The translations under genes and the position numbers were made by a program. A DNA stretch of 64,000 bases, taken from Gordius sp. MW1. Taxonomy: Eukaryota > Nematomorpha > Gordioida > Gordea > Gordiidae. Every line of letters starts with the position of its first letter. Position 1 is the stretch's first letter. The notes beneath the pieces are model-generated. The model was not told the DNA's origin, did no database searches, and was given only the letters and a program-made list of their open reading frames with translations. Positions 1 through 52,519 of this stretch are shown piece after piece. The DNA lies in NCBI GenBank assembly GCA_964036665.1, contig OZ038528.1:23299245-23363244 (forward strand). Direction: 5' to 3'.

Positions 1-1274
1 ACATATGTTTTATCTACTGCAACTTTGTTAAGGATGCTGTCCTGGGACTGTGTGTTGTCATCATCCAAAAGAGCCAAAAGTTTTGCATAGACCTTTGGAT
101 TTCTTTTGGCTGACAATAAACTAAAACTTTGATTACTTATTAGCCTTGCAAAAGGCCATGTTTGACTCTTGTTAGACTTAAGCCATCTTAACATGCGGGT
201 AATATCTTTAACTGCAAAATACTCCTTTGCCTCTAAAAACAATCTGACAACAGTTCTATAATGCACCTTGTATTTGTTTGCTATAACTATTGGTAATGTA
301 AATATAGGCATTCCATTGCAGTAAAATTGTTGCAGACAAGATGATTCAAAGTATTTCTTCATTTGAGATTCTCTATTGCTTGGTTCCCCTGTTTCATTAG
401 TAATTTCACGACATATTTGCCTAATAACTGATGATAAATTATTCTTCATCATGCTAGATTCCAAACATGTCCAGACATTTTGGTTTATTTGGATTACAGG
501 GCATGAGAAAGATAAAGATTTATAGATCGATTTAAATAAGTTGTTAGATTTTGTAGGAAATGCATATTTCACACTTGAAATATTTTTGACAAATAGTCTA
601 CAAAATATCAGGCAAATATGAGATAATCTAGCCACCAACATTTTAAATAACTCATCTTTTCCACAAACCAGGTAATAATAACAGGAGATTTTGTAGTTAT
701 ATTCATATGACATTATAGCAGCATTGATTCTACCTGTTCCTGGATACTTTTCTCCTAATACTTCTTGAGAATCTGTAATAGAAAGAGCTAGGTCAACCAA
801 ATCGTTTATATAAGGAAGGTTTTTAGTTCCTTGTTCTGAAAATAGCTTTTTGAATGCAAGTTGATTGATATCATTTGGATCACAACCAAGGAGTGCCACT
901 GTAAGCAACATTTCTATCATTAAATTATCCGGCTTTATTCCTGTAAAAATGAATCGCATAACAAGTTTACAAAGATGAACTAATTGTTCTTTTGAAGGGT
1001 ATTTATAAGTATCTAGGGCTTCTATGCAAGTTTTATCCAACCATTCTATGCCAGAATCTAATTGGCCTGTGCTATTTGAATGATTTGCTAATTGTAAAAA
1101 TTCATCATAAAATATTTCCATATAATGAGCATTATCGTGGTCATATACATGAGGCATAATCTTATCAATCCCACAAAAATCCTCTATGTGATTTCCACCC
1201 AAAGATATTCTGTCACAAAGTTTTTTAAAGCTGATTAGGCAATCATCTTTGACTCCATTGTAAGATCCATTATT
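1..1274 (-). CDS. Large internal exon of an unrecognised host gene, runs off the left edge
   Basis: The minus strand is open without a stop from 1274 down to base 1, about 424 codons, using ordinary amino acids and no low-complexity sequence. At its upstream side the reverse complement reads ataattctag and then AATAATGG, a good splice acceptor; the TAG there is an in-frame stop, so the exon must begin at the acceptor. The protein starts NNGSYNGVKDDCLISFKKLC and is mostly alpha-helical in composition, rich in Leu, Ile, Cys, Tyr and Lys, with no signal peptide or clear membrane span. Readable stretches include MLLTVALLGCDPNDINQLAF and RINAAIMSYEYNYKISCYYY. I do not recognise the family. A helical-repeat scaffold of the kind found in large germline or trafficking proteins is possible but only a guess. 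No upstream exon could be placed. That this is real coding sequence is likely; its function is unknown. Confidence 0.7.
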
Positions 1275-4590: not shown

Positions 4591-5816
4591 TGTAATATCC
4601 ATTTCCACGACGCTCAAAAAAATCGACATGCCAATCAAAAATTTTTCTTAAAATTTGAAATTAAATTTCTATGGGCTAAGACAAACGTCAATCAACAGAT
4701 GTTTTTAGTTACTAACCTATAAAATTCACAAAAAATATTGATTATAATTCAACCATGGTTTACAAGATTAATTAAAATTTATCATATTTGTAATTAAGAT
4801 TTTTCATATTTAGCATTCTGCATTTACTTCTTTTGATATGTATTTTTAAGCTTGAGCTGATGATCATTGATCTATGTTTATAATTCCTTTTAAATGGCTG
4901 ATATAATTTACAAAGTCAATATTGTATTTGGTACATTTAATAACCTAAGGGATATTTGAGTGAGTATTTAAATACATTAGCTAATGATCATTATATCTGA
5001 TCTATGTTTATAAGCCTATCCTTTTAATTGTAAAGCTAATTGATGAACTCAATATTGTATTTGGTACATTTATAATAACCTAAGGGATATCTGTTGAGCT
5101 TGAGCTAATGATCATTATATCTGATCTATGTTTATAAGCCTATCCTTTTAATTGTAATTTTGGTAGGGCTAATTGATGAACTCATTTTTGTATTTGGTAT
5201 ATTTATAATAACCTAAGGGATATCTGTTGAGCTTGAGCTAATGATCATTATTTCTGATCTATGTTTATAGGCCTATCCTTTTAATTGTAATTTTGGTAGG
5301 GCTAATTGATGAACTCAATTTTGTATTTGGTACATTTATAATAACCTAAGGAATAGCTGAGTTAGTACTTGAATACATTGAGCTTGAGCTAGTGATCAAT
5401 ATATCTAATCTATGTTTATAAGCCTATCCTATTAATTATTTTTATTGTCTATAAGCTTAAAACTAAGGTAAAGTTTATAACTTAGACTAATAAAGTAAAA
5501 GATTTTTTAATAAGCTTCAAATGATTCTGTGCATTTTTATACAAAACTAGAGATGAAAATACAAATGCTTGAGCTTGACTAAACTGATATTCATAATTTT
5601 CTATGCATAGTAATTATTTGAAATATTTTGAAAGTCTTGTGTCGTCATTTTAGTGTCTTCAAAAAAAATACATGTTTTTGTGCCAAAACTAACCTATTGA
5701 GCTTTTAGGAAGATCACGTGATATAGCATATAACTCGTTATTATGCCATATAAACCAATAGGAATGTTCAACTGAGCGTCGTCGTTTTTTAAATGTCGAC
5801 GTTTCAGATCATTACA
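4591..5816. mobile_element. Non-autonomous Ginger-like element, first of a chain of three
   Basis: Left end TGTAATATCCATTTCCACG, right end inverse TGTAATGATCTGAAACGTCG, flanked by identical 4-base copies CAGG (4587-4590 and 5817-5820). Both ends contain a similar ACGACGCTC segment. The interior has no coding capacity that I can see and is mostly a tandem repeat (4853-5430). TGTNR ends with 4-base target copies are what I recall for the Ginger superfamily, and the neighbour at 5821 carries a matching integrase. Confidence 0.65.
4853..5430. repeat. Tandem repeat, about five units of 120-150 bases
   Basis: The phrase GAGCTTGAGCTAATGATCAT recurs with small changes near 4853, 4979, 5098, 5229 and 5379. 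Each is followed by an ATCTATGTTTATAAGCCTAT segment and ATTTGGTACATTTATAATAA. It lies wholly inside the element at 4591-5816. Confidence 0.8.
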
Positions 5817-6320
5817 CAGGTGTAACGTCTATTTTTTAGTTCGTTAAAATAGTCTCCACGTCAATCAAAATGTCAATCATATAAATTCATTTTTATAGCA
5901 AAATGAGTTCTTATTGGCTGATTTAACGTCAATCATTTATTTTGTATTACGTTTTTTAAACTATTATAAACAAATTCAATTAATTTATATAAATATAAGA
6001 ATTGTTCATAAAATTCATTGGCTTAACCTCAATCAATTATTTTGTATTAATCAAACATTTTTATTCTGTTATAATATAAAATAAAATAATGATATTGATA
6101 ACATTATTTTAATAAATGTATATTTTAGCCATTACATATCATCTTTATTGGAAAAAGACATAATAAACCATGTTTTGTCAAATATCATTTTTAGACATTG
6201 GAATAAGAATAAGATATTTTATTTAAAGTAACTATAGAGTAAAAACAGTATACATAAAACAAATTTAACAATTAAAAATATTTTATAAAAACAGTATAAA
6301 TTTTAACAATTAAAAATATT

Positions 6321-6773
6321 TTATAAACATATATCAAATATATAATTAAAGTGATTTATATTGTGATGAATATAAATCGCGTGACTATCTTTTGAATAAA
6401 TAAGGGGGTATGATATCCATTGTTTTAATTCCACGGAAAATACATGTACAGGAATGTTAAATGCATAGGAAAATAATAAAATATCTATGTGGTTCGGCCA
6501 CTTACCTAAAATATATAACTCTTTGACAGTCATATATTGTGGTAAGGTAAGAGGGCGTACCAAGGCTGTCACCACTTCGGGTGGATCAGCGGATATAAAA
6601 TAATTATAAATATAATAGCGAATCAAAGGATGATTATCCTCTGTGTCATATATTGCTTTGCTTATGCAACGGTAAAAACAGTTAACGTCGCCAATAGTGA
6701 TGTAAATTCCATAATTAGGTTTAAGCTCCTTGCTTGGCGATTCTATAGAAGCTATGGGGATATTATGACCCAA
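6321..6773 (-). CDS. OTU-type cysteine protease domain of the Ginger-like element
   Basis: About 150 residues. GDVNCFYRCISKAI near residue 28 matches the OTU catalytic-cysteine box (usual form GDGNCFYRAIS), and the C-terminal NHFNYIF fits the OTU histidine strand. Between them is the usual helical region with LPQYMTVKELYILGKWPNHI. OTU domains remove ubiquitin or act as polyprotein-type proteases. Here the domain lies downstream of the integrase exons on the same strand and is most simply the last exon of the same transcript. Just upstream, short exons are readable at about 6826-6916 (VPKDEIVFVSEEVREISRF) and 6988-7072 (NGDEVVYISKSKEILAK). My memory that some Ginger elements carry OTU domains supports the grouping. 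The GDV in place of GDG is a departure from the usual box. Confidence 0.65.
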   Translation of the reverse strand: MGHNIPIASIESPSKELKPNYGIYITIGDVNCFYRCISKAIYDTEDNHPLIRYYIYNYFISADPPEVVTALVRPLTLPQYMTVKELYILGKWPNHIDILLFSYAFNIPVHVFSVELKQWISYPLIYSKDSHAIYIHHNINHFNYIFDICL

Positions 6774-7429
6774 TCTAGTATATCAATATATATATAATTT
6801 TATAATTATAATACTTATCCATGGCCCAAAATTTCCAAGCCATGTCTGGCAGCTTAAACCTGGAAATTTCTCGAACTTCTTCTGATACAAATACGATCTC
6901 ATCTTTGGGTACAATAAAATAGTTTACAGTAAGTATTATAGAAATTGAACATAAATATGTTGAAAGTTATAAAGGTTCAACCAGCAACCTGTGGATTCCT
7001 TAGCGAGTATTTCCTTTGATTTAGATATGTATACCACTTCATCCCCATTTATTAACGCTTTATTATTCAAAAAAGGATTATTTTTGATCAAAGTTATTAC
7101 CTGGTGAAGGACCGTTTGACATGAGATTCACGGGCAGTGCTGCCGCCTCACCATCTTTAATAACCCCTCTCTCTACTATTTAAAAATAAATTACAGTAAG
7201 TATTATAGAAATTAAACATAAAAGTTATAAAGGTTTAACCAGCAACCTGTGGCTTGTATCAGATCCGACTTGTTCCAACGGTCGCTAGGCAAACCTTAAA
7301 TATTTAATCAACATATATTTAATTAATAAATACCCTCATCAAGATTTTCTTTAAATTTTTTTAGATTGCCCCCATGATATTTTTTCTTGAGCGTTTGCCC
7401 CGACATGTTGGCAAGTGTATACGTGCCTA

Positions 7430-8680
7430 AATAAAACGGAAAATTATAAAAACATAGCATAACGTACCTTTATAGTCATCTACTATTTTGTAAGGTCCCA
7501 ACCACGAAGGAGCGGTTTTATCGCCCTTTCGATCGGCCCTTCTTAAGTTGTAGGCAAGTACAGCATCGCCCTTCTTAAACGTATAAGTGGTTTTATGTCT
7601 CCTCTCATACCACTTTTTCTGATATTTCTGTGCCTTTTTAATATTTTTACTGGCAAATTGGTAGGACAGACGAGTGGCAGAAACCACTTCGTCAAAATTG
7701 ACAACAGAATAAGGCTCCATCTCTATCACAACCTCTTTAGGCTCGGCAGCTATCTCAATGTCAGTTTTCTGGACAGGCCTGGGGTGTCAAATAGATATCA
7801 AATAAAAAATGAGTGTAATGACATAGTTTGTATATACCAATTAAAAATCAGGTAGTAAGGTGTCAACTTTGTTGACGCTTGAACGGCGGTGTTGACTGCA
7901 TAGGTCACACCAGGCAACGCTGACTCCCACTGCTCGAAATGACCATCCAGGGCTTTATTAAGGCCAGCCAATAAAGTCCTGTTCATCCTTTCTACCAAGC
8001 CATTGGCTTGAGGATGGTATGCAGTGGTAATCCTTTGATGTACCCCTCCAAGAGTGTATAACTCTTGAGTAAAGGAGTTCACAAACTCCCTGCCTTGGTC
8101 ATTTATAACATCCTATAAATAATGATTTAACAATGAGATTTAACTTACCTCAGGAAATCCCCATAAAGAGAAATTTTGTAGAAGATTTTGGGAAACCTCT
8201 AGGGCTGTATGGGATCTCATCGGGACAGCTATGGCAAACTTAGAGAAACAGTCAATTAATACTAGAATGCACTTAAATCCTTCAGCACTTTCGGGCAAAT
8301 TACATATATTTATCCCCACAAGTCGTTATGGAAATGGAGGAACGGTTATAGGTTGCAGCTCTGGGGTGCATTTATCAATCTTGGAAGTATGTTTTTGACA
8401 TATACTGCAGCCATTGATAAATGCTGCAGCATCCTCACTCAAACCAGGCCAATAATACCTATTTTTAATTTATTATTTAGTTTAAATAAAATTATAACCA
8501 GTACTTTTCAGTAATCTTGGTCCTTGTACGGTTTATACCAAGATGTGCCCCAAAGCTTTGACCTACAATAGTTCCTTCCATACCATTGTGATACAAAGCC
8601 AGGATCTGTTTCCTTTCGTCAGAATCCATAACTACCCTTAAATCCTTCTCTAACAAAATAAAAAAGTTTCACTTTAAGTA
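7430..8680 (-). CDS. Gypsy/Ginger-type integrase (transposase), spliced
   Basis: Read on the minus strand in order: an H2C2 zinc module (LYHNGMEGTIVGQSFGAHLG ... NGCSICQKHTSKIDKC, 8600-8370); the DDE core with the first Asp in LVLIDCFSKF (about 8270-8240), the second in NDQGREF (about 8100) and the Glu in NGLVERMNRTL (about 7985); then a C-terminal barrel ending SWLGPYKIVDDYK (about 7500), which holds the GPY/F motif. At least three introns are visible with GT donors and AG acceptors, for example gtaagtta...atttatag between 8148 and 8112. The enzyme would cut and join element ends to target DNA in the nucleus. Ordinary retrotransposon integrases do not carry such introns, so a DNA-transposon or domesticated origin is more likely. 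Confidence 0.75.
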
Positions 8681-8904
8681 CCTGTTTTCTGGTCGCAAAA
8701 TTTTGCTGTTTTTTTACAAACAGAAAATTTCCCTTAACATAGTAACCTTTTGATTTCCTAACAAAATAAGTTCTCTGTTTGCGTGTAAAGATTTCAGGTA
8801 TAGTTCCATTTACCAGTTACTCTTTTATGTCACTAAAACAATATTCTGCCATTCTATAAAATTAAAAAAACATATAGCAATCTATTCTTATAATATAACA
8901 ACTA

Positions 8905-9390
8905 TTTCCAATGCTAAGTGTAATATCAATAACTTACTAATAACTTGATATAGGATCAATTATTCAAAAGATAAACTACTATAATATTATAGAATAACCA
9001 TATGATCTTATAGCTAAGTGCAACTTACTTTTAAGAATGATTATATCAATAACTTACTAATAACTTGATATAGGATCAATTATTCAAAAGATAAACTACT
9101 AAAATATTTTAGAATAACCATATGATCTCATAGCTAAGTGCAACTTACTTTTAAGAATGATTATATTAATAACTTACTAATAACTTGATATAGGATCAAT
9201 TATTCAAAAGATAAACTACTAAAATATTATAGAATAACCATATATTTCTTGATCTTATAGCTAAGTGCAACTTACTTTTAAGAATGATTATATCAATAAC
9301 TTACTAATAACTTGATATGGGATCAATTATTCAAAAAATACACTACTAAAATTTTATAAATTAACTATATATTTCTTGATCATATAAACA
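8905..9390. repeat. Four-unit tandem repeat, period about 120 bases
   Basis: The phrase AACTTACTAATAACTTGATA occurs near 8930, 9049, 9169 and 9296, each followed by TAGGATCAATTATTCAAAAG and ATAGCTAAGTGCAACTTAC. It lies between the integrase gene and the right terminal repeat of the element, where a promoter or transposase-binding region might be expected. Confidence 0.85.
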
Positions 9391-9639
9391 TCAAACTAGT
9401 GAAAAAGTTTGTAAATACCTTATTTAACTTTATATTAATTGAAGTAGAATTGCTGGATACAATTTTGATGGAAATGGATACGAAAATAACAGTAATTCTG
9501 GCTAATTTTCGTTCAATCACGTTATTATAAAAAACACGTGACATGTCAAAAACATATCATTTCGTGGTTTTCAACCAATGAGAATGTGTAATTCACGTGG
9601 AGACGATTTTAACGGAGACAAAATCTTACGTTACACCGG

Positions 9640-12546
9640 TGTAATATTGGAGTCAGCGAACGTTGTAAAATAGCGAAGTCAAATGTCAATCAAGCGTCAT
9701 ATATTATTTAAAATTGTTTAAATAGTTCTTATTGGCGGATAAAAACGTCAATCATCAATAATATTATGTTATTTAACATTACAATTTTAATCATATTATA
9801 TATCATAAATAAATTAAGAACTTTGCCGCCCCCCCTTATTTTTTACCCTCTTTATCACCAGGGAGAGTGTTTTGCCCCCCCCCGCTTATTTTTTATCCTC
9901 TTTCTCACCACAGGGGAGATGGGGGGAAGGGGGGGGGGGGGGGGGGGTGTTTCCCCCCCCTCCTTATTTTTTACCCTCTTTCTCACCAGAGGGGAGGGTG
10001 GTTTTGTCCCCCCCCCCCCTCTTATTTTTTATTCTCTTTCTCACCAGTTTTTTATCCTCTTTCTCACCACATGAGAGATGGGGGTGGGGGGGGGGTGTTT
10101 TGCCCCCCCCCCTTATTTTTGACTCTCAAAGGAGGGGGGGTTTCCCCCCCCCATTTTTTATCCTATTTATTACCAGAGGGAAGGGGGGGGGTGTTTTGCA
10201 CCCCTTATTTTTTATCCCTCTTTTTCACTGGTGCCCCCCCCCCCTGGTAAGAAAAAGGGTAAAAAATAAAGGGGGGGGAGGCAAATCACCCCCTTCTCCT
10301 CTGGTGAGAAAAGGGATAAAAAATAGGGGGGGGGGGCAAAACACCCCCCCCCCCCCCATCTCCCCTCTGGTGAGAAAAAGGATAAAAAATAAGGGACCCC
10401 CCCCGAGGAAAACTCTTCTCCCCCATCTCCCCGCTGGTGAGAAAAAGGATAAAAAATAAGGGAGGGGGGGGGGGCAAAACACTCCCCCCATCTCCCTCCT
10501 GGTGAGAAAAAGGATAAAAAATAAGGGAGGGCTTTCTCACCAGGGGTGAGAAAGAGGGTAAAAAATAAGGTGGGGGGGGGGCAAATCACCCCCTCCCCTC
10601 TGGTGAGAAAAAGGGTGAAAAAAAACTGGGGGGGGGGGAAAGCAAATCCCCCCTCCTCCCTGGTAAGAAAGAGGGTAAAAATAATGGGAGGGGGGCAAAT
10701 CACCCCCCCCCCCTCTTGTAAGAAAGAGGGTAAAAAATAATGGGGTGGGGGGCAAATCACCCTCTCCCCTCTGGTGAGAAAAAGGGGAAAAAATAATGGG
10801 GGGGGGGGAGCAAATCCCCCCCCCCCCCTGGTAAGAAAGAAAATAATGGGGGGGGGGCAAATCACCCCCTCCCCTCTGGTGAGAAAAAGGGTAAAAAATA
10901 ATGGGGGGGGGGAAGCAAATCCCCCCCTCCCACCTGGTAAGAAAGAGGGTAAAAAATAAGGGGGGGGGGCAAATAACCCTTACCCCCTGGTGAGAAAGAG
11001 GGTAAAAAATAATGGGGGGGGGCAAATCACCCTCTCCCCTCTGGTGAGAAAAAGGGTAAAAAATAATGGGGGGGGGGGGGGGAAGCAAATCCCCCCCTAC
11101 CCCCTGGTAAGAAAGAAAATAATGGGGGGGGGCAAATCACCCCCTCTCCTCTGGTGAGAAAAAGGGTAAAAAATAATGGGGGGGGGGAAGCAAATCCCCC
11201 CTCCCCTTTGGTAAGAAAGAGGGTAAAAAATAATGGGGGGGAGGGGGCAAATCACCCTCTCCCCTCTGGTGAGAAAAAGGGTAAAAAATAATGGGGGGGG
11301 GGGGGAAGCAAATCCGCCCCTCCCCCCTGGTAAGAAAGAAAATAATGGGGGGGGGGGCAAATCACCCCCTCCCCTCTGGTGAGAAAAAGGGTAAAAAATA
11401 ATGGGGGGGGGAAGCAAATCCCCCCTCCCCCCTGGTAAGAAAGAGGGTAAAAAATAAGGGGGGGGGCAAATCACCCCTACCCTTTGGTGAGAAAGAGGGT
11501 AAAAAATAGTGGGGGGGGGGGAAATTACCCCTTTCCCCCCTGGTGAGAAAGAGGGTAAAAAATAAGGGGGGGGGGGCAAATCACCCTCTCCCCTCTTGTG
11601 AGAAAAAGGGTAAAAAAAGGGGGGGGGGAGCAAATCCCCCCTCCCCCCTGGTAAGAAAGAAAATAATTGGGGGGGGGGGCAAATCACCCCCTCTCCTCTG
11701 GTGAGAAAAAGGGTAAAAAATAATGGGGGGGAAGCAAATCCCCCCCTCCCCCCTGGTAAGAAAGAGGGTAAAAAATAATGGGGGGGGGGGGGGGGCAAAT
11801 CACCCTCTCCCCTCTGGTGAGAAAAAGGGTAAAAAATAATGGGGGGGGGGAAGCAAATTCGCCCCTCCCCCCTGGTAAGAAAGAAAATAATGGGGGGGGG
11901 GCAAATCACCCCCTCCCCTCTGGTGAGAAAAAGGGTAAAAAATAAGGGGGGGGGAAGCAAATCCCCCCTCCCCCCTGGTAAGAAAGAGAGTAAAAAATAA
12001 GGGGGGGGGGGCAAATCACCCCTACCCTTTGGTGAGAAAGAGGGTAAAAAATAGTGGGGGGGGGGGGCAAATTACCCCTTTCCCCCCTGTTGAGAAAGAG
12101 GGTAAAAAATAAGGGGGGGGGGCAAATCACCCCCCTCCCCCCTGGTGAAAAAAAGGGTACAAATAAGGGGGGGCAAATCACCCCCCCCCCCCCCCCCCCC
12201 CCCCCTCCCTCCTGGTGAGAAAGAGGGTAAAAAATAATATTATTCTATTTAATTAACTTAATATTTAATTCAACACAATTAGCATCTACCTTGCAAAATG
12301 TTATTAAATATAATTTATCTATCTCTAATTCAAATATGGGATAATTGACGTTCAAATTTAAAAACGCTATGGTTTAACAATGGGATCGTCAAAAGTAACA
12401 ATGCATTTTCCCAATCCCCACCCAATCCCCTGCTAGTAAAAAAAGACGTGATAAACGTCAAAACTCATTATTTCGTGTTTTTAACCAATAGCAATTCGTA
12501 TTTGATGTTCGCTATTTTACAACCTTCGACATTTCTGTACGCTACA
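9640..12546. mobile_element. Non-autonomous Ginger-like element carrying a giant G-run/C-run array (copy A)
   Basis: Starts TGTAATATTGGAGTCAGCG, ends (inverse) TGTAGCGTACAGAAATGTCG, and is flanked by CCGG on both sides (9636-9639, 12547-12550). Subterminal segments GTTGTAAAATAGCGAA and its inverse are shared by both ends. The interior from about 9825 to 12235 is an array of a roughly 50-base unit: ATTTTTTACCCTCTTTCTC, ACCAG, a G run, TGATTTGC or TGTTTTGC, a C run. Units point one way to about 10240 and the other way from there on. No real gene is present. A second copy lies inverted at 19378-21618. Confidence 0.75.
9825..12235. repeat. G-run/C-run minisatellite with an orientation switch
   Basis: About 45 units of roughly 45-60 bases. 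Each has CTGGTGAGAAAGAGGGTAAA (or its inverse) plus a G run of 7-17 and a C run of 5-25. Two subtypes alternate, GGCAAATCACCC and GAAGCAAATCCCCCC. The switch in direction is at about 10230-10250. Long G runs every ~50 bases on one strand are strong G-quadruplex candidates and the complement could form i-motifs. Long open frames here are proline/glycine/phenylalanine artefacts. Confidence 0.9.
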
Positions 12547-12550
12547 CCGG

Positions 12551-13070
12551 TCCGACTTTATTTCAAATTATATTTTTAAACTTACTTTAGTTTTGGATTG
12601 GAAATAACTGGAATCATCTCAAGCCCTGCGGGTCTAAAAAGAGATTAACTGCTTTTAAACGTTTTATTTTTCTGCCATATTGTGTAATTTTAAACTTAAT
12701 ACGTTTTAATGCGTATTATTTAGAGTTGTTAAATTGGTAAATTTCTTCAACTCCAGCTACCATCTGCTCGAGTTTCTGCTCCGCCCTCGAGCATTTTTAT
12801 ATGCTACTGTTCTGCCTAGTGCACCGAACAGCGAGCACACATTGTGCTAACGCGCATATTAAGCAACTCAGTGTGCGTGCTCGCGTCTGGAGTTTGAAGA
12901 AAGTTAGCAATTTGACAACTCTAGTATTATTATTATTACCATTGGAAGTTACTTTTACCATTTTTTCGTGGTTAGTTTCATTGAAAAGGGATAAGAATTC
13001 AATTTTAACGAGTAATTTATTTCACCAAAATCTATAGATAAGTAGTGGAATCGAGTATTACTATTTTAAG
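12551..13070. other. AT-rich spacer, no gene seen
   Basis: No supported exon or repeat ends. It contains one GC-moderate patch (about 12770-12890) with no recognisable protein. Confidence 0.4.
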
Positions 13071-13923
13071 TAGGGGAGACCGGGGACTAAATAGCGATAA
13101 AAAATTAAATCACGTATGAAAAAAACTAATAAAGATTTTTATAATTTTTTTTTAATTGGAATACATTTTTATAGTCTATTTCTACTATAGGAAAAAAATG
13201 GGGAAAAAGTGCTTATAGTTTTTTCATAAATTAAGTTTAAAAAAATCAAAAATCCTAAAAATTTTAAAAGTGCCCGGGGTTAGTTACAGCCCTGTTCAGG
13301 GGATAGATTAACCCTGACGTTTTCACTTCTTATTAGTGTATGCTAACTCAAATATTAAAAAATCAATAAAAAGATTGTTTTAATATAAAAAACATAGAAA
13401 ATGCAAATGGAATATGACTGTAAAAAAAAGAGTCAAACAAAAGTCAGATTCTGCAATGGATAAAATTTTTTTGCCGTTCTTTAAAGAAAAATCATAGTCT
13501 GTTTCTATTCCAAATTTCACTGAGTTGGATTATTAAACAAAATATTTGCCTTTTAAATCTTGTCATTTGTAAGACACAATGAAAAATGGCTAGCAACTAG
13601 CCTCTCTCCGACTAGCCCCGACCCCTATTTTTATAAATAATAATTTGACATGTTATATTGCGAATAAAAATTCATTCATTAGACGGTTTTTATATAAAAA
13701 TTATCTATAAGATAAAACTTAAATTAGCCCAAAATATACAGTCAAATATGTGCAAAATACAAAAAACTTTTAAGTTTTATTTTTTCTAAACAAAAACTTT
13801 TTTGCTCATACCTTATAAAAAAATACACATACGGTTTAAATTTTTGTTATATATCATTATTACTAAAAAATAATCACAAAGATAATAGTAACCCCGGGCT
13901 AAGACTAGCCCCGGTCTCTCCTA
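13071..13923. mobile_element. MITE-like element with GGGGAGACCGGGG termini (copy 1)
   Basis: Starts TAGGGGAGACCGGGGACTAA and ends GACTAGCCCCGGTCTCTCCTA. The interior is AT-rich without coding sequence. A second copy lies in the opposite direction at 54223-55366 and shares the interior, for example CCCTGTTCAGGGGATAGATT and AACCCTGACGTTTTCACT. No clear target duplication; superfamily not assigned. Confidence 0.7.
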
Positions 13924-16060
13924 CTAAATTTTTGTAATTTTTTTACCGTAATCAGCGGAGGGGGGGGGGTGAGGGATTGATTGTTGAAACCTAACCCCCA
14001 CCCACTCTTTTTGGGGACCTTAATGCTACTTATATATACTGTTTTCCCATCCTACTTAACCCGATAAGTAGGTACCGCTAAAGGGTAGGCCTACCCAAAA
14101 TGAAAATAGTTTTATCTTAATATACTTTAAATAGCCAAATAATATAAAATCATGAAAAATTGCCTACTTTCGGAAATAAGTGAGGCTACACTGGGAGACA
14201 TAAAATTAAGCAAGTTAATTTTATTAAATAACCAAGATAAATAAAAAAGTTTGCTAATTATATCGGAATGATGTCCAACATTCAATTCATTATTACCCCC
14301 CTCTAATTCCAATGCTGGCTACGCCCATATATAGGTTTAAAATGAATCGGAGTCAAAGTAGCAGAATGATGAAAAGGTAGCAGAAAAAGTCAAAACAATA
14401 AACCTAACCCTAAAGTACTGCATAATTATAACCCTAACCCTAAAGTACTGTATAATTATAACCCTAACTCTAAAGTACTGCATAATTATAGGTTAAAACT
14501 TAAATTCTATGTTAAATCCTGACCAATCCAGACCAATCTTGATAAATTCTGACCAATTTGGCTGCTTTTTTCTGCTACTTTGACCGGGTGCCGTTTAAAA
14601 CAATATGTCAGCCTCGCTTGCCGCTTAGTACTTAATTAAATGTGATTAATTCGAAATTGCTTTTCAAAGAACAAGGGTCACTTTTATAAATAAAAGTTAT
14701 GTGCAAAGAAAGAGTATAATAGTAAATTAAAAATGATAATCTTGATATTTAAGCAAACTGTGTGTAGCCTTTTTCCTTTTAAAGCCATGCAATTTTTATC
14801 TTGTTACAAAATCTAATTCCATATTGTTTTAAAAATCTTAAATTTGCCCAAGTTTTATACTTACAGCAGTAAAATAAAAGTACACTATTCAAAAATAAGT
14901 TTTCGAAAGCAATAAGGTTTGCAACGCAATGGGTTATAAAAATGTTAATCCAAAAAATTTAGCGCACGGATAATTAATTTTAAATACATAACTCGCAATT
15001 GGAAAATATACAATAAGGTTCACTACTATCTTCTTGTTAACGAATGATACAAATCGAACTTTATATTAAATTGATATTTTAAATTATTTTATAATTAGAA
15101 ATAAATATTTAAAACTAATAGGTTTAAGATTTTTCCTTGCAAATTGCAACTCTATTAATGTAGGGTTAGTGGTGAACAATTTGGTTCAAAGCAATAGTAG
15201 AATTTTTTGAAATTAACCTATAATAAAAGTCTAAACTATCATTATATATACTTCATCAAAAAAATCTCCAAGTTATTTATATTTTTTTGTGCAATAAAAA
15301 TATGTTGTTTTATTAAACCAATACATGAAAAGGTAAATGTTTAATTTCATAATCTTTAAAAATAGCTACGAGAGAAGATTTTCATATATTGTATTATCCA
15401 TAAAAATTATTTTGGTTCCATATTTTAAACTAATTTAAGTTTTATCTCATAAAGGCATATTTTTCTATAAAAACGAGCAATTAATAAAAATTTTAATTGC
15501 AATTTCCCATGTTGAAATTTTATTTGTATAAAAAATAGGGGCGGGGCTAGCCTTCCTCATTGAATCTTTCTTTATAAAGAGATGTTTTAAAAGCATAAAT
15601 TTCCTTTAATAATTCATCTTATTGTAATTTGTAAAAGAAATAACATTTAAAAACTAATTCCTTTCTCCATCGTAGAGTCGGTATTTTATGGGTGATACGC
15701 TGATACGATACATTAGTTAGGTATCTTGACCCATTTTATTATCACAATGGGTAAAATATAGGCATATTACGTTTGAGTAAAAAAAAAGTAAAATATTAAA
15801 TCTATTTTATCCCCTAAAAAATGGGATATTGGTTTGTTTAGACTTAATTTGTGGAAATATAATATAAAAATCTCACAAAATATTCTTCTTACAGTAAGAT
15901 AACATCTTAAAAATATATTCTAACATAAAATTTGAAACAATTAATTTCGTTTTTTTTTCAAAACGTACTGATTTATGATAGGTATTCTATCCCAGTTCTC
16001 CCCTACTGTTTATTTTGTTTATATAAATTACATTTTGCCCCGCCTAACCCCGCGTTCGTG
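13924..16060. other. AT-rich repeat-derived spacer, no gene
   Basis: Apart from the minisatellite at 14391-14492 and one end of a GGCTACGCCCAT MITE near 14328, I see only AT-rich sequence. A fragment TTCTCCCCTACTG near 15995 resembles the terminus of the element at 13071. Confidence 0.4.
14391..14492. repeat. Three-unit minisatellite with telomere-like phrase
   Basis: AACCCTAACCCTAAAGTACTG followed by (C/T)ATAATTAT occurs three times with a period of about 30 bases. CCCTAACCCTAA resembles the animal telomere repeat, but only one and a half repeats occur per unit, so this is not a telomere. Confidence 0.75.
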
Positions 16061-16063
16061 ATG

Positions 16064-16473
16064 ACGCGCGAAGCGAAAAAAAGCGAAGTGAAGTTTTGAG
16101 CTAATTTATCAAACTATTTATTCTTTTTTCTTAATATCTTTATAATAATCGTAAAATTTATCATATATCACGAAAATAACAATTGTAAATAGGATGCGTT
16201 CTTGGTGAAACCGCAGACGATTATTTTGGCCTGCTGCAAAAAGCGAACGAAAATAAGATACATATCATTTTGTACTTTTCGCGCGGGTTAAATAATTGAA
16301 TTTCGTATGTAGGTATTAATTGCTTACAATTTTATATGTTTATTTTTATAGAATAAATACGATCTTATCAATTACCATTAATATATGATAATTTGACTAT
16401 AAATATAAAGATATTAAGAAAAATAATGAATAGTTTGATAAATTAGCTCAAAACTTCACTTCGCTTCGCGCGT
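16064..16473. mobile_element. Foldback MITE, arms of about 105 bases
   Basis: Left arm GACGCGCGAAGCG...GAAGTGAAGTTTTGAGCTAA (16064-16170) is repeated inverted at 16365-16473, ending TTCGCTTCGCGCGTC. The spacer holds CGATTATTTTGGCCTGCTGC. No target duplication is obvious. Confidence 0.7.
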
Positions 16474-16509
16474 CTTAACAGTCAACTTTTTTGGCTTTGC
16501 AAAGGGGGG

Positions 16510-16700
16510 TAGATTAGTGGTGGGAAACCTGAGGTTTTATAAACCTTAACCTCAAGGTAGGTTTAAGGTTAACCTCAAACCTAACCTTAAGGTGAGGTTC
16601 GAGGTTTATAAGGACCTCAAGGTTTTCCATATAAAAAAACCTTAAAACCTCAGGTCCACCTTGAGGTCACCTCGAGGTTTCAACAAGTATGCTTCATTTT
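16510..16700. repeat. Subterminal-repeat cluster of a hAT-like end
   Basis: TAGTGGTGGGAAACCTGAGG is followed by many copies of ACCTCAAGGT / ACCTTAAGGT in both directions. Dense short inverted repeats next to a TAGNG terminus resemble the ends of the hAT-type elements at 47025 and 49041. I found no partner end, so it is probably a truncated copy. Confidence 0.45.
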
Positions 16701-16805
16701 TTATATCTTAATTTTACGACTAAATTATAGTCTCTAACAAAAAAATTTATTAAGTATATATATATATTAAAAATAGTTCAAACAAATTTATTTTAACCAT
16801 TGACT

Positions 16806-16824
16806 GCAGTAGTAGTAGTAGTAG
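16806..16824. repeat. AGT/TAG microsatellite
   Basis: Short run of GTAGTAGTAGTAGTAG in otherwise unremarkable sequence. Confidence 0.8.
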
Positions 16825-17401
16825 ATAGATAAACAACAACACGCACATAATTCCTAGTGTTAAAGAGAAGGGAGGGAGACTCAAGTCTGATTGGTGTTAA
16901 ACCTTATGGGAAAACGTGATGTCCTAGGAAGTCTAACGAAGAACTTCCCTACTCACAAATTAACATTAATTAAACAAAGATAAATGATTGCAAGAGGGGC
17001 CAAACAGGAATTTTCCTTAGGTGGCCGAAGAGACCGGGAATTTGCTCTTGGAGGTAAGGGTAGGTGTGGCCCCCCTAATCCTCTTACCTATGCCTTTGGA
17101 GGCAGATAAATCTTTTAGCCTCTTCTACGCCTAAACTGCAATTTACTATTACACTCAACAATTAACAAACATTTTACTATCCCCATTAAACGACTACAAC
17201 CCTTAAATCCCGCAAATATACAAAAATGATAGTAAGAAAATATATTTTACAGCCAAATTAAATATCTACTTCATTTTATATTTTCAAACTTTATATAGCA
17301 ATAATCATCACTTAGACCTGTCAAATTTAAGCTTTTAGCAACCAACAAATTAATATGTTATTGTCAGAGTGGGGTTATAATATGACAACGTTAATGGACA
17401 T

Positions 17402-17573
17402 TGTAGTATTCTTAACTACAATGTAGTATATCAACTACTCAGAAATACGCTGAAGCTTTATTAATATGCAAAAATCAACTAAAACATTTGATGATAAAAC
17501 ACCAGTATATTACACTAGGAACAACGAACTTAAACGTATATATAAATACAAAGTATTAATCTATGATATTACA
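17402..17573 (-). repeat. Gypsy LTR, downstream (3') copy
   Basis: TGTAGTATTCTTAACTACAA at the left, ATCTATGATATTACA at the right. It pairs with 26426-26597 with four mismatches. At 172 bases it is short for a Gypsy LTR. Confidence 0.95.
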
Positions 17574-17585
17574 TTTCTCCCTATT

Positions 17586-18749
17586 TTAAAAATTGAACTC
17601 ATCATGAAAACGCACAGGTTCTTTCAAAATTCTTATAGGCCGTCTTATAATAGTTGGATTTTCAGCTATATCAATGTTTGGTTCAAGATTCGCTTTCATT
17701 ATCTCTACATTTAACATAAACTCGGAACGTAGTCTAAATTTTAACTGGTCGGCATGTTTTCTTCGTATTCCCTCATTTGTGCGGACATTATAAGAATAAT
17801 GGCTTTTCTGTTCAACGATCACACCTTTATGCCAACCTGATTTTGTTTCATTTAGAATCCACACTGGATCTCCAACCGTAAATTCTCCATAATTCGTTTT
17901 GCGATCGTGATATAGTTTTTGTTTCCACACGTTTTCCTTCATTTTCCTTCTTGGGTCAACCTTAATCAAATCGATAGCTGTTTGTAACCTTCTCCCAATA
18001 AACATTTCTGCAGGTGCTTTTCCAGTAGTCGCTTGAGGCGAATTCCGATAACACATAAGAACTTGCTGAAGGCATAATTCTTTGTCTAACATCTCCTTCC
18101 TTCCTGCCCAGTATCGACTTTTTAATGTACGTATAATTCTTTCAGCTAGTCCGTTTGTTTTAGGGTGATAGGGAGTAGACTTTATATGTATAATATTGTA
18201 CTGAACACAGAATTTATGGAATTCGATTCCGGCGAATTGTGGTCCGTTATCGGACACTATCTGATTTGGTATCCCAAAACGACAAAACCAATTTCGTAAA
18301 TGGTTTATTATAACGGATGATGTTGTTGATTTCAGGGTGGCCAATTCAACCCATTTCGATAGAGAGTCAATTAAAACTAACCACCATCTGCCTTCAACGG
18401 GTCCTGCTATATCGATATGAACGCGCTCCCATACTCGATCAGTCAAACTCCATGGATGTAAAGGTACCGGCTTTTCGATTGGTCTCAACTCTTGACATCC
18501 ATCACAGCCTTTAACATATAAATCTATGTCACGATCCATCGCAGGCCAGTAGACGTTATACCGTGAAATATTCCGCATTCCCGTTATACCCGGATGACCT
18601 TGGTGTAAAATCTTTAACATAAGTCTTTGTAGGCTTTCTGGAATTATTAAACGATTTCCCAAAAATAAAAGGCCATCTTCATAAGAAATTTCGTCTCTTC
18701 TATTATAATACGCTAATCTATATGAAATTTCGACACATCTATTCGCCAA
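17586..18749 (-). CDS. Gypsy integrase region (fossil part)
   Basis: Part of the LTR element. It shows the H2C2 zinc module (HQGHPGITGMRNI ... CDGCQELRP), the DDE core (HIDIAGPVEG, VSDNGPQF, HPKTNGLAERIIRTLKS) and a C-terminal domain with DPVWILNETKSGWHKGVI in place of a clear GPY motif. The order and motifs are those of Ty3/Gypsy integrases. Confidence 0.9.
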   Translation of the reverse strand: MANRCVEISYRLAYYNRRDEISYEDGLLFLGNRLIIPESLQRLMLKILHQGHPGITGMRNISRYNVYWPAMDRDIDLYVKGCDGCQELRPIEKPVPLHPWSLTDRVWERVHIDIAGPVEGRWWLVLIDSLSKWVELATLKSTTSSVIINHLRNWFCRFGIPNQIVSDNGPQFAGIEFHKFCVQYNIIHIKSTPYHPKTNGLAERIIRTLKSRYWAGRKEMLDKELCLQQVLMCYRNSPQATTGKAPAEMFIGRRLQTAIDLIKVDPRRKMKENVWKQKLYHDRKTNYGEFTVGDPVWILNETKSGWHKGVIVEQKSHYSYNVRTNEGIRRKHADQLKFRLRSEFMLNVEIMKANLEPNIDIAENPTIIRRPIRILKEPVRFHDEFNF

Positions 18750-18755
18750 TTTTTT

Positions 18756-19187
18756 TCAATAGCGCGAATTAGTTCGACACCCAGTATCCGTCTTAATTGC
18801 ATTCTTCAACATCTCTCTATTTAATGTCAAATCATCCAACATTAGTAAACCGACATTATTGATGTAATTCGTCAGTTCTTCGTCACTATCTTGTATCGTT
18901 AACCGGGATAAAGCATCAGCACATTGATTCTCCTTACCCATACGATATTTGATATCAAATTGATAAGAATTTAAAAATAAGGCCCAACGTACGAGCCTAT
19001 TATTTACCATTTTTGGTAAATCACGATAACATCCGAATAACCGCTCCAAGGGTTTGTGATCGGTTGTTAAAGTAAATTGTCTTCCCCGAAGATATTGATT
19101 AAACTTTTCAACTCCGTAAATGATAGCACGAGCTTCACGATCAATGGTTGAATACCTTTTTTTGCAGTGCTTAAGTTCGGGATGCAT
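18756..19187 (-). CDS. Gypsy RNase H region (fossil part)
   Basis: Contains [34 protein letters not shown] and [17 protein letters not shown], the three usual signatures of Ty3/Gypsy RNase H. It lies between the nested G-run element and the integrase region. Confidence 0.9.
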
Positions 19188-19377
19188 AAGCGATCGGTTT
19201 TTCCGAACCGTCCGGAAATTTATGAGATAAGACGGCGCCTAACCCCGTCTCCGATACATCTACTGCAAGGTTTAGTGGCAACGTAAACTAAAGTATCAGA
19301 AGATGACAGCAATTTCTTAACATCATTAAAAATTGTTTGTTCTGAAGCTGTCCATTTCCACATCACGGAAGAACCGG

Positions 19378-21618
19378 TGTAGCGTACAGAAATGACGAAG
19401 ATTGTAAAATAGCGAACGTCTTATACGAATTGCTATTGGTTAAAAACACGAAATAATGAGTTTTGACGTTTATCACGTCTTTTTTTACTAGCAGGGGATT
19501 GGGTGGGGATTGGGAAAATGCATTGTTACTTTTGACGATCCCATTGTTATACCATAGCGTTTTTAAATTTGAACGTCAATTATCCCATATTTGAATTAGA
19601 TAGAGATAGATAACTAATACATTTAAATTGATATAATTATATTCATCTTTAACAATTTGTAAGGTAGATGCTAATTGTGTTGTGTTAAATATTAAGTTAA
19701 ATATAATAATATTATTTTTTACCCTCTTTCTCACCAGGGGGAGGGGGTAATTTGCCCCCCCCCCCATTATTTTTTATTATCTTTCTCACCAGGGGTTAGT
19801 AGGCAGGTGATTTGCCCCCCCCCTCTCGATTACTTTTTACCCTCTTTCTTACCAGGGGGGGGGGGGGTGATCAGGGGGGGGGGGGGGTGATTTGCTCCCC
19901 CCCCCTTATTTTTTATTCTCTTTCTCACCAGAGGGGGGGGGGGGGGGAGGGGGTGAATTGCCCCCCCCCCCATTATTTTTTACCCTCTTTCTCACCAGGG
20001 GGTAGGAGGTGATTTGCCCCCCCCCCCATTATTTTTTATCCTCTTTCTCACCAGAGGGGGGGGGGGGGGGTGGGAGGGGGTGATTTGCCCCCCCCCCCCC
20101 ATAATATTTTTTACCCTCTTTCTCACCAGGGGGTAGGGGGTGATTTGCCCCCCCCCCCTTATTATTTTTTATCTTCTTTCTCACCAAAGGGGGGGGGGGG
20201 TGATTTGCCCCCCCCCCCATTATTTTTTACCCTCTTTCTCACCAGGGGGTAGGAGGTGATTTGGCCCCCCCATTATTTTTTATCCTCTTTTTCACCAGAG
20301 GGGGTGGGGGGGTGGGAGGGGTGACTTTCCCCCCCCCCCCCAATATTTTTTACCCTCTTTCTCACCAGGGGGAGGGGGGTGATTTGCCCCCCCTCCTTAT
20401 TTTTTACCTTCTTTCTCACCAGGGGGGAGATAAGGAGGGGGGGGGGTGTTTTGCCCCCCCCCTTATTTTTTACCTTCTTTCTCACCAGGGGGGAGATGGG
20501 GGGGGGGGGGTGTTTTGCCCCCCCCCCCCCACCTTATTTTTTACCCTCTTTCTCACCAGGGGGGAGGGGGTGATTTGCCCCCCCCCCTTATTTTTTACCC
20601 TCTTTCTCACCAAGGGGGAGATAGGGGGGGGGGGGGGTGTTTTGCCCCCCCCCCCCCCCCTTATTTTTTACCCCTTTTCTCACTAGGGGGGGGGGGGGGG
20701 TGGTCGCCCCCCCCCCTTATTTTTTACCCTCTTTCTTACCAGGGGGGGGCACCAGTGAAAAAGAGGGATAAGGGGTGCAAAACACCCCTCCCCCCTTCCT
20801 CTGGTAAGAAAGAGAGTCAAAAATAAGGGGGGGGGGCAAAACACCCCCCCCCCCCCATCTCCCCTGTGGTGAGAAATAGGATAAAAAATAAGGAGGGGCC
20901 CCCATCTCCCCTCTGGTGAGAAAGAGGGTAAAAAATAAGGGGGGGGGGAGGGCAAAACACCCCCCCCCTATCTCCCCTGTGGTGGAAAGAGGATAAAAAA
21001 TAAGAGGGGGGCCCCATCTCCCCTCTGGTAAGAAAGAGAATAAAAAATGGGGGGATGGGCAAAACACTCCCCCCCCACCTCCCCTGTGGTGAGAAAGAGG
21101 ATAAAAAATAAGGGGGCCCCCCCCATCTCCCCTCTGGTGAGAAAGAGAATAAAAAATAAGGGGGGGGGGCAAAACCCCCCCTCCCCTCTGGTGAAAAAGA
21201 GGGTAAAAAATAAGGGCCCCCCCCCTGGTGAGAAAGAGGGTAAAAAATAAGGGGGGGGGGGCAAAGTTCTTAATTTATTTATGATATATATATATATAAT
21301 ATGATTATTGTAATGTTAAATAACACAATATTATTGATGTGACGTTTTTATCCGCCAATAAGAACTATTTAAACAATTTTTATGAAAATAATATATGACG
21401 CTTGATTGACATTTGACTTCGCTATTTTACAACGTTCGCTGACTCCAATATATATATAATATGATTAAAATTGTAATGTTAAATAACACAATATTATTGA
21501 TGTGACGTTTTTATCCGCCAATAAGAACTATTTAAACAATTTTTATGAAAATAATATATGACGCTTGATTGACATTTGACTTCGCTATTTTACAACGTTC
21601 GCTGACTCCAATATTACA
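19378..21618. mobile_element. G-run/C-run Ginger-like element, inverted copy B, nested in the Gypsy element
   Basis: Left end TGTAGCGTACAGAAATGACG, right end (inverse) TGTAATATTGGAGTCAGCG, flanked by CCGG on both sides (19374-19377, 21619-21622). This is the reverse complement arrangement of copy A at 9640-12546. The array (about 19720-21260) again switches direction, at about 20750. The right flank is duplicated: a block of about 170 bases with GACGTTTTTATCCGCCAATA and GCTATTTTACAACGTTCGCT occurs at 21290-21450 and again at 21455-21618. It interrupts the retrotransposon between its RT and RNase H parts, so it moved after the retrotransposon arrived. Confidence 0.8.
19720..21260. repeat. G-run/C-run minisatellite, copy B array
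   Basis: Same unit as at 9825-12235: ATTTTTTACCCTCTTTCTC then ACCAG, a G run, TGATTTGC or TGTTTTGC, a C run. About 30 units; direction switches at about 20750. Here many units read TGTTTTGC, as in the left (minor) arm of copy A. Confidence 0.9.
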
Positions 21619-21748
21619 CCGGTGAGTGCATGTAAGGGTGCACATTTTCCATGTAATCTAGGAATAAAACGTTCTTGATAATTCACCAATCCCAAAAATG
21701 ATCGTAGTTCTTTCTTGTTAGATGGTACTTTAAATTTACTTATAGCTT

Positions 21749-48924: not shown

Positions 48925-49693
48925 ATTATTTGTTACATTTTTATTTGATTGTATATGGAAAATGCTAAAAACAGGAAGCTTGCTTTTGCCACCCATTCCT
49001 AAATTATTTATAATCTTTGCCCGAACACCTCTATTTCCATTAGAGATCTGCACGGGCCGGCCCGTCCGGACGGGCTTTGTATCATAAAAAATTTAACGGG
49101 CCGGGCCCGGACGGGCCTAAAAATTAATGGAACGGGCTCGGGCGGGCCTGAGATTTTTTTAACGGGCTTGAACGGGCCTGAAGTTTTATAAACGGGCTTA
49201 AACGAACCAGAGATTATATAAAAGGTCTTGGAGTTACAAAGGTACTTAAACATCAAACAATTAGAAAAAACAAAAAGCGAGCCAATAAATTGCATAACAA
49301 TTAATATATTATTTTTATTAAATATTTAGGATTAATTTTTTAACTTCTAAATTTTGTATATCCTGTAGCATTCATTCATTTTTCAAGCGCTAAATTTGAC
49401 CTTTTTTTAATTTGCTATTGATTTTTAAGACTATAACTTCATTCTTATAAGTAAGTTTAATTACACTTTTGTGATTAATTTTATCACAAATTACTATTAT
49501 TATTAGTGCCATATAAATTCATAAACATTTTTGCTCTAATCTTTGAAATTAACTTTAATTAAAAACTTAAATGTAACTTTTTGTTAGCTTTGTATTTTTT
49601 TGTTATTGATTAAGTTTAATTCCTTTGCCTTAAAATTCTAGTGCTTAAATATTTGACAAATTATTCTTGTTATATTATTTTAAATTTTTCTAC

Positions 49694-50774
49694 ATTAATT
49701 TTACAATATTAACTAGATTTAGCTTGGTTGAAAAAGGTATTTTTTCTGGATATTTTTATTAAATATTTGGCTTTATATCGCTTTGCTTTACTAATCCCTT
49801 TAATAATTGTATTTTTTGTTTTGAAACTAACAGTTTAATATTAAAAGGCTTAATCTATAATTAATATATGCAACATAATAAAAGTTATTGATTTGATACA
49901 TCCTTACTTTTTTATTAAATTTTATTATAGTGTCAAATAATTTGTCCACAATCATATCTAATTATGAAAAAGGTGTATATAAAATAAATTTAAATCACAA
50001 GCTTAAAAGTAAAGTTTGGGAACAATTTGATCCTTTAATGGATGTTAATTGAATCATTAATTTTACAATATTAACTAGATTTAGCTTGGTTGAAAAAGGT
50101 ATTTTTTCTGGATATTTTTATTAAATATTTGGCTTTATATCGCTTTGCTTTACTAATCCCTTTAATAATTGTATTTTTTGTTTTGAAACTAACAGTTTAA
50201 TATTAAAAGGCTTAATCTATAATTAATATATGCAACATAATAAAAGTTATTGATTTGATACATCCTTACTTTTTTATTAAATTTTATTATAGTGTCAAAT
50301 AATTTGTCCACAATCATATCTAATTATGAAAAAGGTGTATATAAAATAAATTTAAATCACAAGCTTAAAAGTAAAGTTTGGGAACAATTTGATCCTTTAA
50401 TGGATGTTAATTGAATCATTAATTTTACAATATTAACTAGATTTAGCTTGGTTGAAAAAGGTATTTTTTCTGGATATTTTTATTAAATATTTGGCTTTAT
50501 ATCGCTTTGCTTTACTAATCCCTTTAATAATTGTATTTTTTGTTTTGAAACTAACAGTTTAATATTAAAAGGCTTAATCTATAATTAATATATGCAACAT
50601 AATAAAAGTTATTGATTTGATACATCCTTACTTTTTTATTAAATTTTATTATAGTGTCAAATAATTTGTCCACAATCATATCTAATTATGAAAAAGGTGT
50701 ATATAAAATAAATTTAAATCACAAGCTTAAAAGTAAAGTTTGGGAACAATTTGATCCTTTAATGGATGTTAATG
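49694..50774. repeat. Tandem triplication, 362-base unit
   Basis: TTAATTTTACAATATTAACT begins units at about 49695, 50057 and 50419. The units look identical to each other by eye. Each ends with GGATGTTAATTGAATCA, except the last, which runs on into the transposase exon (GTTAATGGTGAATCAG). Each unit includes the acceptor TTTATTATAG and the exon start TGTCAAATAATTTGTCCACA. Confidence 0.9.
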
Positions 50775-52519
50775 GTGAATCAGTTAGTGCCTGCATATGC
50801 AAAAATTGCAAAAAAATACTTTCATATAAATCAGCAGATGGTACATCACATTTAAAACGCCACAAATGTACAACCCAAAGACAAAATAGCCTAACACTAG
50901 ATCATTATATGAATAAAATAAACCCCTTAAAAGAAGAAAAAATTAAAAAATCAATCATAAATCAGGCTATAAAATTTTGCTCAAAAGATTTACGGCCATT
51001 CGAAACTTTAGCAGGAGAAGGTTTTCGGGTTTTGCCAGTTTTTGGTAGATAGTTTGTCAACTAAGGGGTTAATAAATGTGCGACAAATTATGCCTCATCC
51101 ATCAACTATAAGCCGCCATGTGAAAGATGAGGCTGAAAGACTTCGACTTTCTATAATTCCAGATATAAAACATTACATTCAGAAAGGGCTTTGCGCGGCC
51201 ACAACAGACATGTGGACATGTGATTATACAAAAATCAGTTTTCTCACATTAAGTATTCATTATATAAATGTTAGCCTGAGAAAAAAAATATTATTTACAA
51301 CTGCTTTTAAGCATGAAAAAAAATCAGGGGAGAATATTAGAAATGAATTATTAAACAAATTAATGACTTTTGGCATTACCAATGAAGAAGCCCATAAATT
51401 AATATTTGTCACTGATCAGGGTGCTAACATTGTCAATGCATTAGCAAATTATAGTAGATTAAATTGCGCAGCCCACCTTATAAATAATATGATAAAAATG
51501 GCCTTTAATGATTCTTTCTTAAATCAAGAAGCCACGGTTATTTATAAACTCATGAATGCCTCTAAAGAATTAGTCAGGCATTTCAAACAAAGTGGACTCA
51601 ATAGCAAGCTGTCCCATACCTTGCATCAAGATGTAATTGTAAGATGGAACTCAAAATTGACCCTTTTGAATTCTATTTATAAGGTCTATGACGAAGTTGA
51701 AGCTATCTTGGAACAACGAAATGAACTTTCATATCTGGAATATATAGATAAAATGTTGTTGAAATCTTTAATAGACGTCTTGCAGCCGTTTAAAGAGGCT
51801 TCTCTTCAGTTGAAGGCTGATCTAGAACCAACCCTACCATATGTCTTCTTATGGAAAATTAAATTAATTAATGCGATGTCGGATTATGATTTATACGGCG
51901 GACAAGTCAACATAATAAAGAACCGTTTAAAAGAAGCTATTAAAGAAAAAATGGTAGTTCATCGGTATCACAAAATAGCTTCGGTCTTGCATCCGAAGTT
52001 TAGACAAATGAAGATGATACCTGAAGCAGAAAAACTAGACATATATCAAGATATAAGAAATATTATAGAGCAAGAAGGGTTTTTCTATATAAGAAAATCT
52101 TCTGTTTTACTGGGCTCAAAGACATCTCTCGCAAGTACTTACAATTTTTTATTTATATATAATATATAAAAATATATAAGGTAAGAGACCGAAAACAATT
52201 TTTTCTGAATGGGAAGATAATGATCATAATCCTGTGGCGGATGAGTTTAGTCAATATTTAGATGAAACTATTGAGGCTGATTTCGATCTGTTAAAATGGT
52301 GGAAAGCCAAAGAGGACAAGTATTATATTTAAAATTAATCTTATCCTTTAATAGATATCCTAAATTAGCACATTTAGCACATATGATATTATGATACCGG
52401 CTACGAGTGCCACCAGCGAGCGAAATTTTTCTACGGCAGGAAGGCTTGTAGAAGAAAGGCGAACTCGCCTAAAACCAGACATTATTGATGATTTATTATT
52501 TTTACATGATAATTATTGA
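50654..52519 (+). pseudogene. hAT transposase (BED zinc finger, RNase-H-like core, hATC), damaged
   Basis: The exon starts after TTTATTATAG; no ATG is present, so the start codon may be made by splicing (A joined to TG TCA). A BED finger lies at residues 45-72 (CICKNCKKILSYK ... HLKRHKC). The frame changes near 51040, after ETLAGEGFRVL; the next frame goes on with VDSLSTKGLINVRQIMPHPS, the core segment TTDMWTCDYTKISFLTLSIH, FVTDQGANIVNALAN, LNCAAHLINNMI and VIVRWNSKLTLLNSIY. A further break follows near 52160. The C-terminal dimerisation domain ATSATSERNFSTAGRLVEER is readable at 52400-52519. One or two frame changes make this copy inactive as it stands. Confidence 0.88.

Follow-up and report, generated by a model that had tools for sequence, protein, structure and literature searches.

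The transposons of the Ginger1 group are defined by TGTNR ends, target duplications of CCGG or CCGT and a Gypsy-like integrase accompanied by an OTU or Ulp1 domain (PMC2836005); the main text of that description does not contain the word 'tandem'. Among the nearest known kinds of transposon with internal repeats are the satellite-bearing elements of bivalves (PMC5139131, PMC8268682). Here a stretch of 64,000 nucleotides from the nematomorph Gordius sp. MW1 (assembly GCA_964036665.1, contig OZ038528.1, forward strand positions 23,299,245 to 23,363,244; called the window throughout) was analysed, which contains two elements, A and B, filled with a minisatellite of G-run/C-run units of ~55 bp. 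With a probability of roughly 0.7 these are non-autonomous Ginger1-type transposons which are moved in trans and carry a passenger foldback array shared among transposon families.

An initial annotation of the window had described two element copies with G-run/C-run arrays, inverted to each other about 7 kb apart, and an internal switch of direction in both arrays. This layout is confirmed. A and B lie 6.8 kb apart in inverted orientation, their arrays measure 2,416 bp and 1,556 bp, respectively, and each array has one switch at which the units meet head to head ('><'), with 7 units followed by 36 in A and 9 followed by 17 in B when counted from its L end. Tandem Repeats Finder reported a 55-bp period with ~30 copies at 10545-12191 in array A. 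In B the inner L end is duplicated (163 bp x 2). No transposase gene (integrase-like, zinc-binding/DDE) was seen in A or B. The parts are as follows.

9640 to 12546, plus strand: element A, non-autonomous Ginger1-type transposon, from L end to R end; TGTA...TACA ends, CCGG at 9636-9639 and 12547-12550
9640 to 9823, plus strand: L end of A (40 genome matches scored among 405 first-look candidates)
9824 to 10231, plus strand: left arm of array A, made up of 7 units
10215 to 10260, no strand assigned: direction-switch centre of A, common to most family members examined
10233 to 12239, minus strand: right arm of array A, made up of 36 units running in reverse
12240 to 12546, plus strand: R end of A, a homologue of the terminus of an integrase-bearing family (40 genome matches scored among 187 first-look candidates)
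19378 to 21618, minus strand: element B, of the family of A but inverted; TGTA...TACA ends, CCGG at 19374-19377 and 21619-21622
19709 to 21264, no strand assigned: array of B; its direction switches near 20725-20770
17589 to 19238, minus strand: Gypsy-type integrase and RNase H; B is inserted next to them

An exact 25-base word of the unit was found 427 + 488 = 915 times in the genome of 212 Mb, against no occurrence of its reversed control; therefore the repetition of the unit is not due to chance. For the analysis of the family 21 elements were used, namely A, B and 19 of 20 fetched loci, one locus (L028) being excluded as a composite. The switch was found in all 21 elements, which come from chromosomes C1-C8, with an extra local flip in two of them, so that they have the long inverted tandem-repeat arms of a foldback element, and the same centre sequence was matched in 19 of the 21. 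An assembly artefact was rejected on these grounds as the origin of the layout; exact run lengths remain uncertain from the assembly alone. Because of the switch in all elements and the centre common to nearly all, the change of direction is ancestral in the family and was multiplied by transposition.

The initial annotation's view of a mobile family is borne out by 135 genome matches to the R-end pattern with at most three mismatches (control 0) and by CCGG on both sides of 14 of the 21 elements. From the others, one has CAGG on both sides, five have CCGG on one side only, and in one both sides are altered and unlike. The L end begins with TGTAA and the R end with TGTAG (TGTAA in some copies), which agrees with the TGTNR ends of Ginger1, and the 4-bp target duplication in the elements examined likewise corresponds to its CCGG or CCGT. 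L and R ends have an inner motif of ~21 bp in common; the 21-base motif was found 198 times, its control 0 times. At 7 of the 42 element sides TGTA continues beyond the 4-bp site, across a shared CCGG or CAGG (including window 9636-9639). Six of these sides are Ginger-type ends when read by eye and the L024 case is doubtful. Such abutting ends are as expected if the duplicated CCGG itself serves as a target. Eight copies are close to one another, with end sequences differing by 0.5-0.7% on average; their left arms contain 7-8 units and their right arms 26-42. The remaining 13 elements have diverged by an average of 1.7% at the L end and 4.4% at the R end. The left arm is stable, in contrast to a hypervariable right arm, and the eight near-identical copies indicate recent movement together with fast change of one arm, which makes the resizing of the array directly measurable.

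A source of transposase was looked for in longer members of the family (L024, L027, L028, L061), but no Ginger integrase was recognised by eye in their lists of open reading frames. The extra DNA of these members resembles other elements, also by eye, with reverse transcriptase or hAT-like frames and further tandem repeats. A related family with integrase genes is found directly beside A in the window.

6066 to 9635, minus strand: damaged copy of the related Ginger1 family with integrase genes, separated from A by no more than a single CCGG at 9636-9639
7427 to 8469, minus strand: integrase-like transposase pieces (tblastn 94-98% to open reading frames of locus L059), made up of a zinc-binding/DDE piece at 8469-8140, a DDE piece at 8112-7798 and a C-terminal GPY/F-like piece at 7783-7427
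6321 to 6782, minus strand: OTU-like protease domain (E 0.0049, below the Pfam cut-off)

This copy has lost its left side, and one of the integrase pieces has an in-frame stop. Over 3.3 kb (6066-9370) it is 97.4% identical to L059. Both L059 and a second copy, L060, have the family end on both sides and CCGG flanks. In the open reading frames of L059 Integrase_H2C2 and OTU score above the Pfam cut-off, the two OTU hits with E values of 5e-6 and 8e-6, as would suit the C-terminal OTU or Ulp1 domain of Ginger1, and rve and rve_3 score below it. In L060 H2C2 is above the cut-off, rve and rve_3 are below, and OTU was read by eye. A WLAPYKI stretch was read by eye as resembling GPY/F, and Pfam gave nothing useful for this piece. 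The zinc-binding and DDE domains of a Ginger1 transposase were thus found in the related family only. Its terminal repeats are 676 identical out of 700 aligned columns in L059, longer than the published 40-270 bp. The connection to A lies in the R end, which aligns to the end of the integrase family with a score of 86, against a mean of 29.1 (sd 4.8, maximum 46) for shuffles. Because of this homology we infer that A and B, as cut-and-paste transposons, are mobilised in trans, the enzyme being an integrase-like transposase of the kind encoded by the neighbouring family.

Two side observations concern the integrase-bearing family. Near its ends it has 120-bp tandem units in varying number (window 8923-9370; L059, L060). 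The window copy is joined, at 5812-6065, to one half of a short palindromic element next to the junction of TACACAGG with TGTAACG; both inverted halves of this short element are present within L059.

No array unit was found in L059, L060 or window 6066-9635, except that L059 has one stray G-run/C-run pair. This bears on the idea that the array consists of repeated transposase-binding or subterminal sites for the Ginger element; the initial annotation had named a transposase-binding feature as one possible function. Such a role has been proposed for Galileo, the repeats of which, within terminal repeats, are reported to hold additional binding sites (PMC4079207), and the array is kept in all Ginger elements of our sample. 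The absence of the unit from the integrase-bearing copies argues against it, and so does the presence of units within families with other ends and other target duplications. Since the array is common to unrelated families a transposase-specific role is disfavoured, and we regard it as improbable.

These other families became apparent from seven array loci on chromosome C1 which lack the exact Ginger motif. Three of them (L062, L063, L067) have older Ginger ends, three (L064, L065, L068) have other termini (TAGTGTT...), and L066 belongs to a third family. The transposons of the hAT group have 8-bp target duplications and TAGNG-like ends. In the three copies with TAGTGTT-type termini in which both ends could be read (L064, L068, L072) 8-bp target duplications were found, two exact (ATTGGAAT and CTTATGAC) and one with 7 of 8 positions (TATAACAC/CATAACAC), and the termini are TAGTG except for one end with TTGTG. 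Four loci of this hAT-like family (L069, which is the same place as L065, L070, L071 and L072) all carry the array. The hAT-like terminal-repeat word has 170 exact hits in the genome, and one inverted pair of it only 96 bases apart represents a form without array. In the third family all nine pairs of a left and a right flank found among the best 40 + 40 scored hits are turned towards each other, with an interior of 466-2,753 bp, and on C1 and C2 an exact edge word (see below) lies no more than 1.1 kb from 15 of the 28 flank hits. An exhaustive search for the outer ends at one locus of this family gave no convincing duplication. As an observation apart, at C8:25419712-25442435 two third-family elements almost equal in length flank the Ginger1 copy L060 as mirror images, suggesting a large inverted duplication.

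What the families have in common is the unit and the edge of the array. The Ginger L end finishes with 26 bases that match the array edge in the third-family locus L066 completely (26/26), and by eye the edge in the hAT-like family can be aligned with both of them. An exact word from the edge occurs 317 times in the genome (control 0). The unit form TGTTTTGC is common to Ginger and hAT-like arrays. Another form, TGATTTGC, had 243 occurrences in the 21 Ginger elements, against none in six loci of the hAT-like family and one in the third family, represented by a single locus. Because the edge and the TGTTTTGC form are shared, the array module is homologous across families. The array as a Ginger-specific cargo was rejected, since the unit also fills the hAT-like and the third family, and in this respect the initial annotation, which had seen in it the cargo of one family, does not hold. 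It had also named arrays mostly outside TGTAR-ended elements as a finding that would speak against it, and this looks largely to be the case. From 37 exact-unit clusters on C1, seven have intact Ginger end motifs, three old Ginger ends, seven are hAT-like and four third-family; an exact Ginger end motif lies within 400 bp of 12 of 100 listed array-edge words (out of 317). These family counts rest on exact words and best-scored hits and are partial; diverged Ginger ends would escape the count of edge words near an end motif. The third family is probably more abundant.

The frequency of the edge word might also mean that array and inverted edges together form a mobile foldback element in its own right, which inserts into other transposons. 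Thirteen inverted edge pairs less than 4 kb apart were found among the 100 listed words, nine of these pairs being 425-713 bp long; L066 has both edges, and a Ginger copy at C2:18545453-18548077 contains an inverted edge pair. On the other hand, the similarity between hAT-like and third-family loci runs outward past the edge without a clean stop (as judged by eye from an alignment), the fetched Ginger copies have the edge word on one side only, and the module showed no target duplication. An independently mobile array thus appears unlikely.

The favoured explanation, a passenger array in transposons moved in trans, would work as follows. A and B hold the foldback (head-to-head) minisatellite of 55-bp G-run/C-run units in place of a gene. 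The array, a module which they share with at least two other transposon families, would be a passenger copied together with its edge sequence from element to element by recombination or by template switching during gap repair. Each host transposon would then amplify the array, which would next be resized by unequal exchange or replication slippage. A more far-reaching version can be put forward only tentatively: the palindromic minisatellite might be a parasite of transposons without affinity of its own to any transposase, passing with its edges between Ginger1-type, hAT-like and third-family elements, where its hairpin-prone runs might provoke template switching in the repair of gaps left by excision, so that several machineries amplify it.

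Several findings weigh against the favoured explanation. The L end of A is not similar to the end of the integrase family above the level of shuffles (score 35, shuffles up to 54), nor are the L and R ends of the A-type element to each other (45, shuffles up to 66). The 79 relatives obtained with a joined query at E 1e-10 or better include four named Hydra vulgaris proteins and two unnamed OTU-bearing proteins, which count in its favour, others from Trichinella, Gordionus and Gigantopelta, and also some retrovirus-related Pol names, so that the list alone cannot separate Ginger from Gypsy integrases. Sixteen of the 37 unit clusters on C1 were assigned to no family, nine of these having an edge word within 3.6 kb. 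An exact unit lies within 3 kb of only 20 of 43 edge words on C1, leaving many edge words without a demonstrated array, and within 3.5 kb of only 11 of 27 hAT-like terminal words on C1; the latter number is an undercount because most hAT-like units are spelled differently. No transfer between families was caught in the act.

The G and C runs had also led the initial annotation to propose that dense quadruplex or i-motif DNA is spread by the element. An enrichment was indeed found: 26-30% of 25-base windows in the arrays reach a G4Hunter score of 1.5 or more compared to 0.9% in the rest of the window, and array A has six and array B nine classical quadruplex motifs, with 14 in the other 58.3 kb of the window and ~0.1 on average in mononucleotide shuffles of the arrays. 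The motifs are however far fewer than the units (43 in A and 26 in B), and G runs can pair with C runs within a unit. In foldings of the unit which allowed quadruplexes the hairpin won in five of six cases, the quadruplex in one of three as DNA and none of three as RNA. According to these predictions the enrichment is real, the motifs are sparse, and G-run/C-run hairpins would compete with them. That the array is retained for quadruplex or i-motif formation affecting replication or chromatin is accordingly very improbable, and as a caution, arrays of G and C runs need not signal a quadruplex function.

Away from these elements the window has an open frame of 424 codons at 3-1274 (minus strand) with a weak match, below the cut-off, to a family of rhabdovirus nucleoproteins (E 1.2e-4); it may be a fragment of an endogenous virus. 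Two further tandem arrays are located at 49693-50782 (362-bp unit x 3, 99% matches) and 57646-58601 (279-bp unit x 3.4).

Three transposon families linked by one repeat module provide a natural system for the entry of an array into transposons, its resizing and its movement between them. Among the top matches listed by literature searches, in the parts available, no head-to-head G/C-run array in a Ginger element or shared by unrelated transposons was recognised. With Ginger1 (PMC2836005) the elements have in common the TGTNR ends, the CCGG duplication and, in the related family, a Gypsy-like integrase with OTU, whereas A and B are non-autonomous and contain an internal foldback array of G/C-run units. 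Tetris (PMC4079207) and Galileo (PMC4168063) likewise have inverted arms with internal tandem repeats and structural variation, and there are Tetris copies without a conserved gene; the duplications in Tetris are however 8-10 bp long as compared to the 4-bp CCGG of the Ginger type, and what sets the present arrays apart from both is their 55-bp unit, with its long runs of G and C, and the occurrence of one array type in several families. The satellite-bearing elements of bivalves (PMC5139131, PMC7492417) share tandem repeats in non-autonomous elements and related monomers in more than one type of element, but here Ginger1-type elements and elements with 8-bp duplications have one head-to-head array together with its edge in common. 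Foldback elements with internal tandem repeats are, beside these bivalve elements, the nearest kind already known, and the G/C-run array within Ginger1-type and other families is a variant of it.

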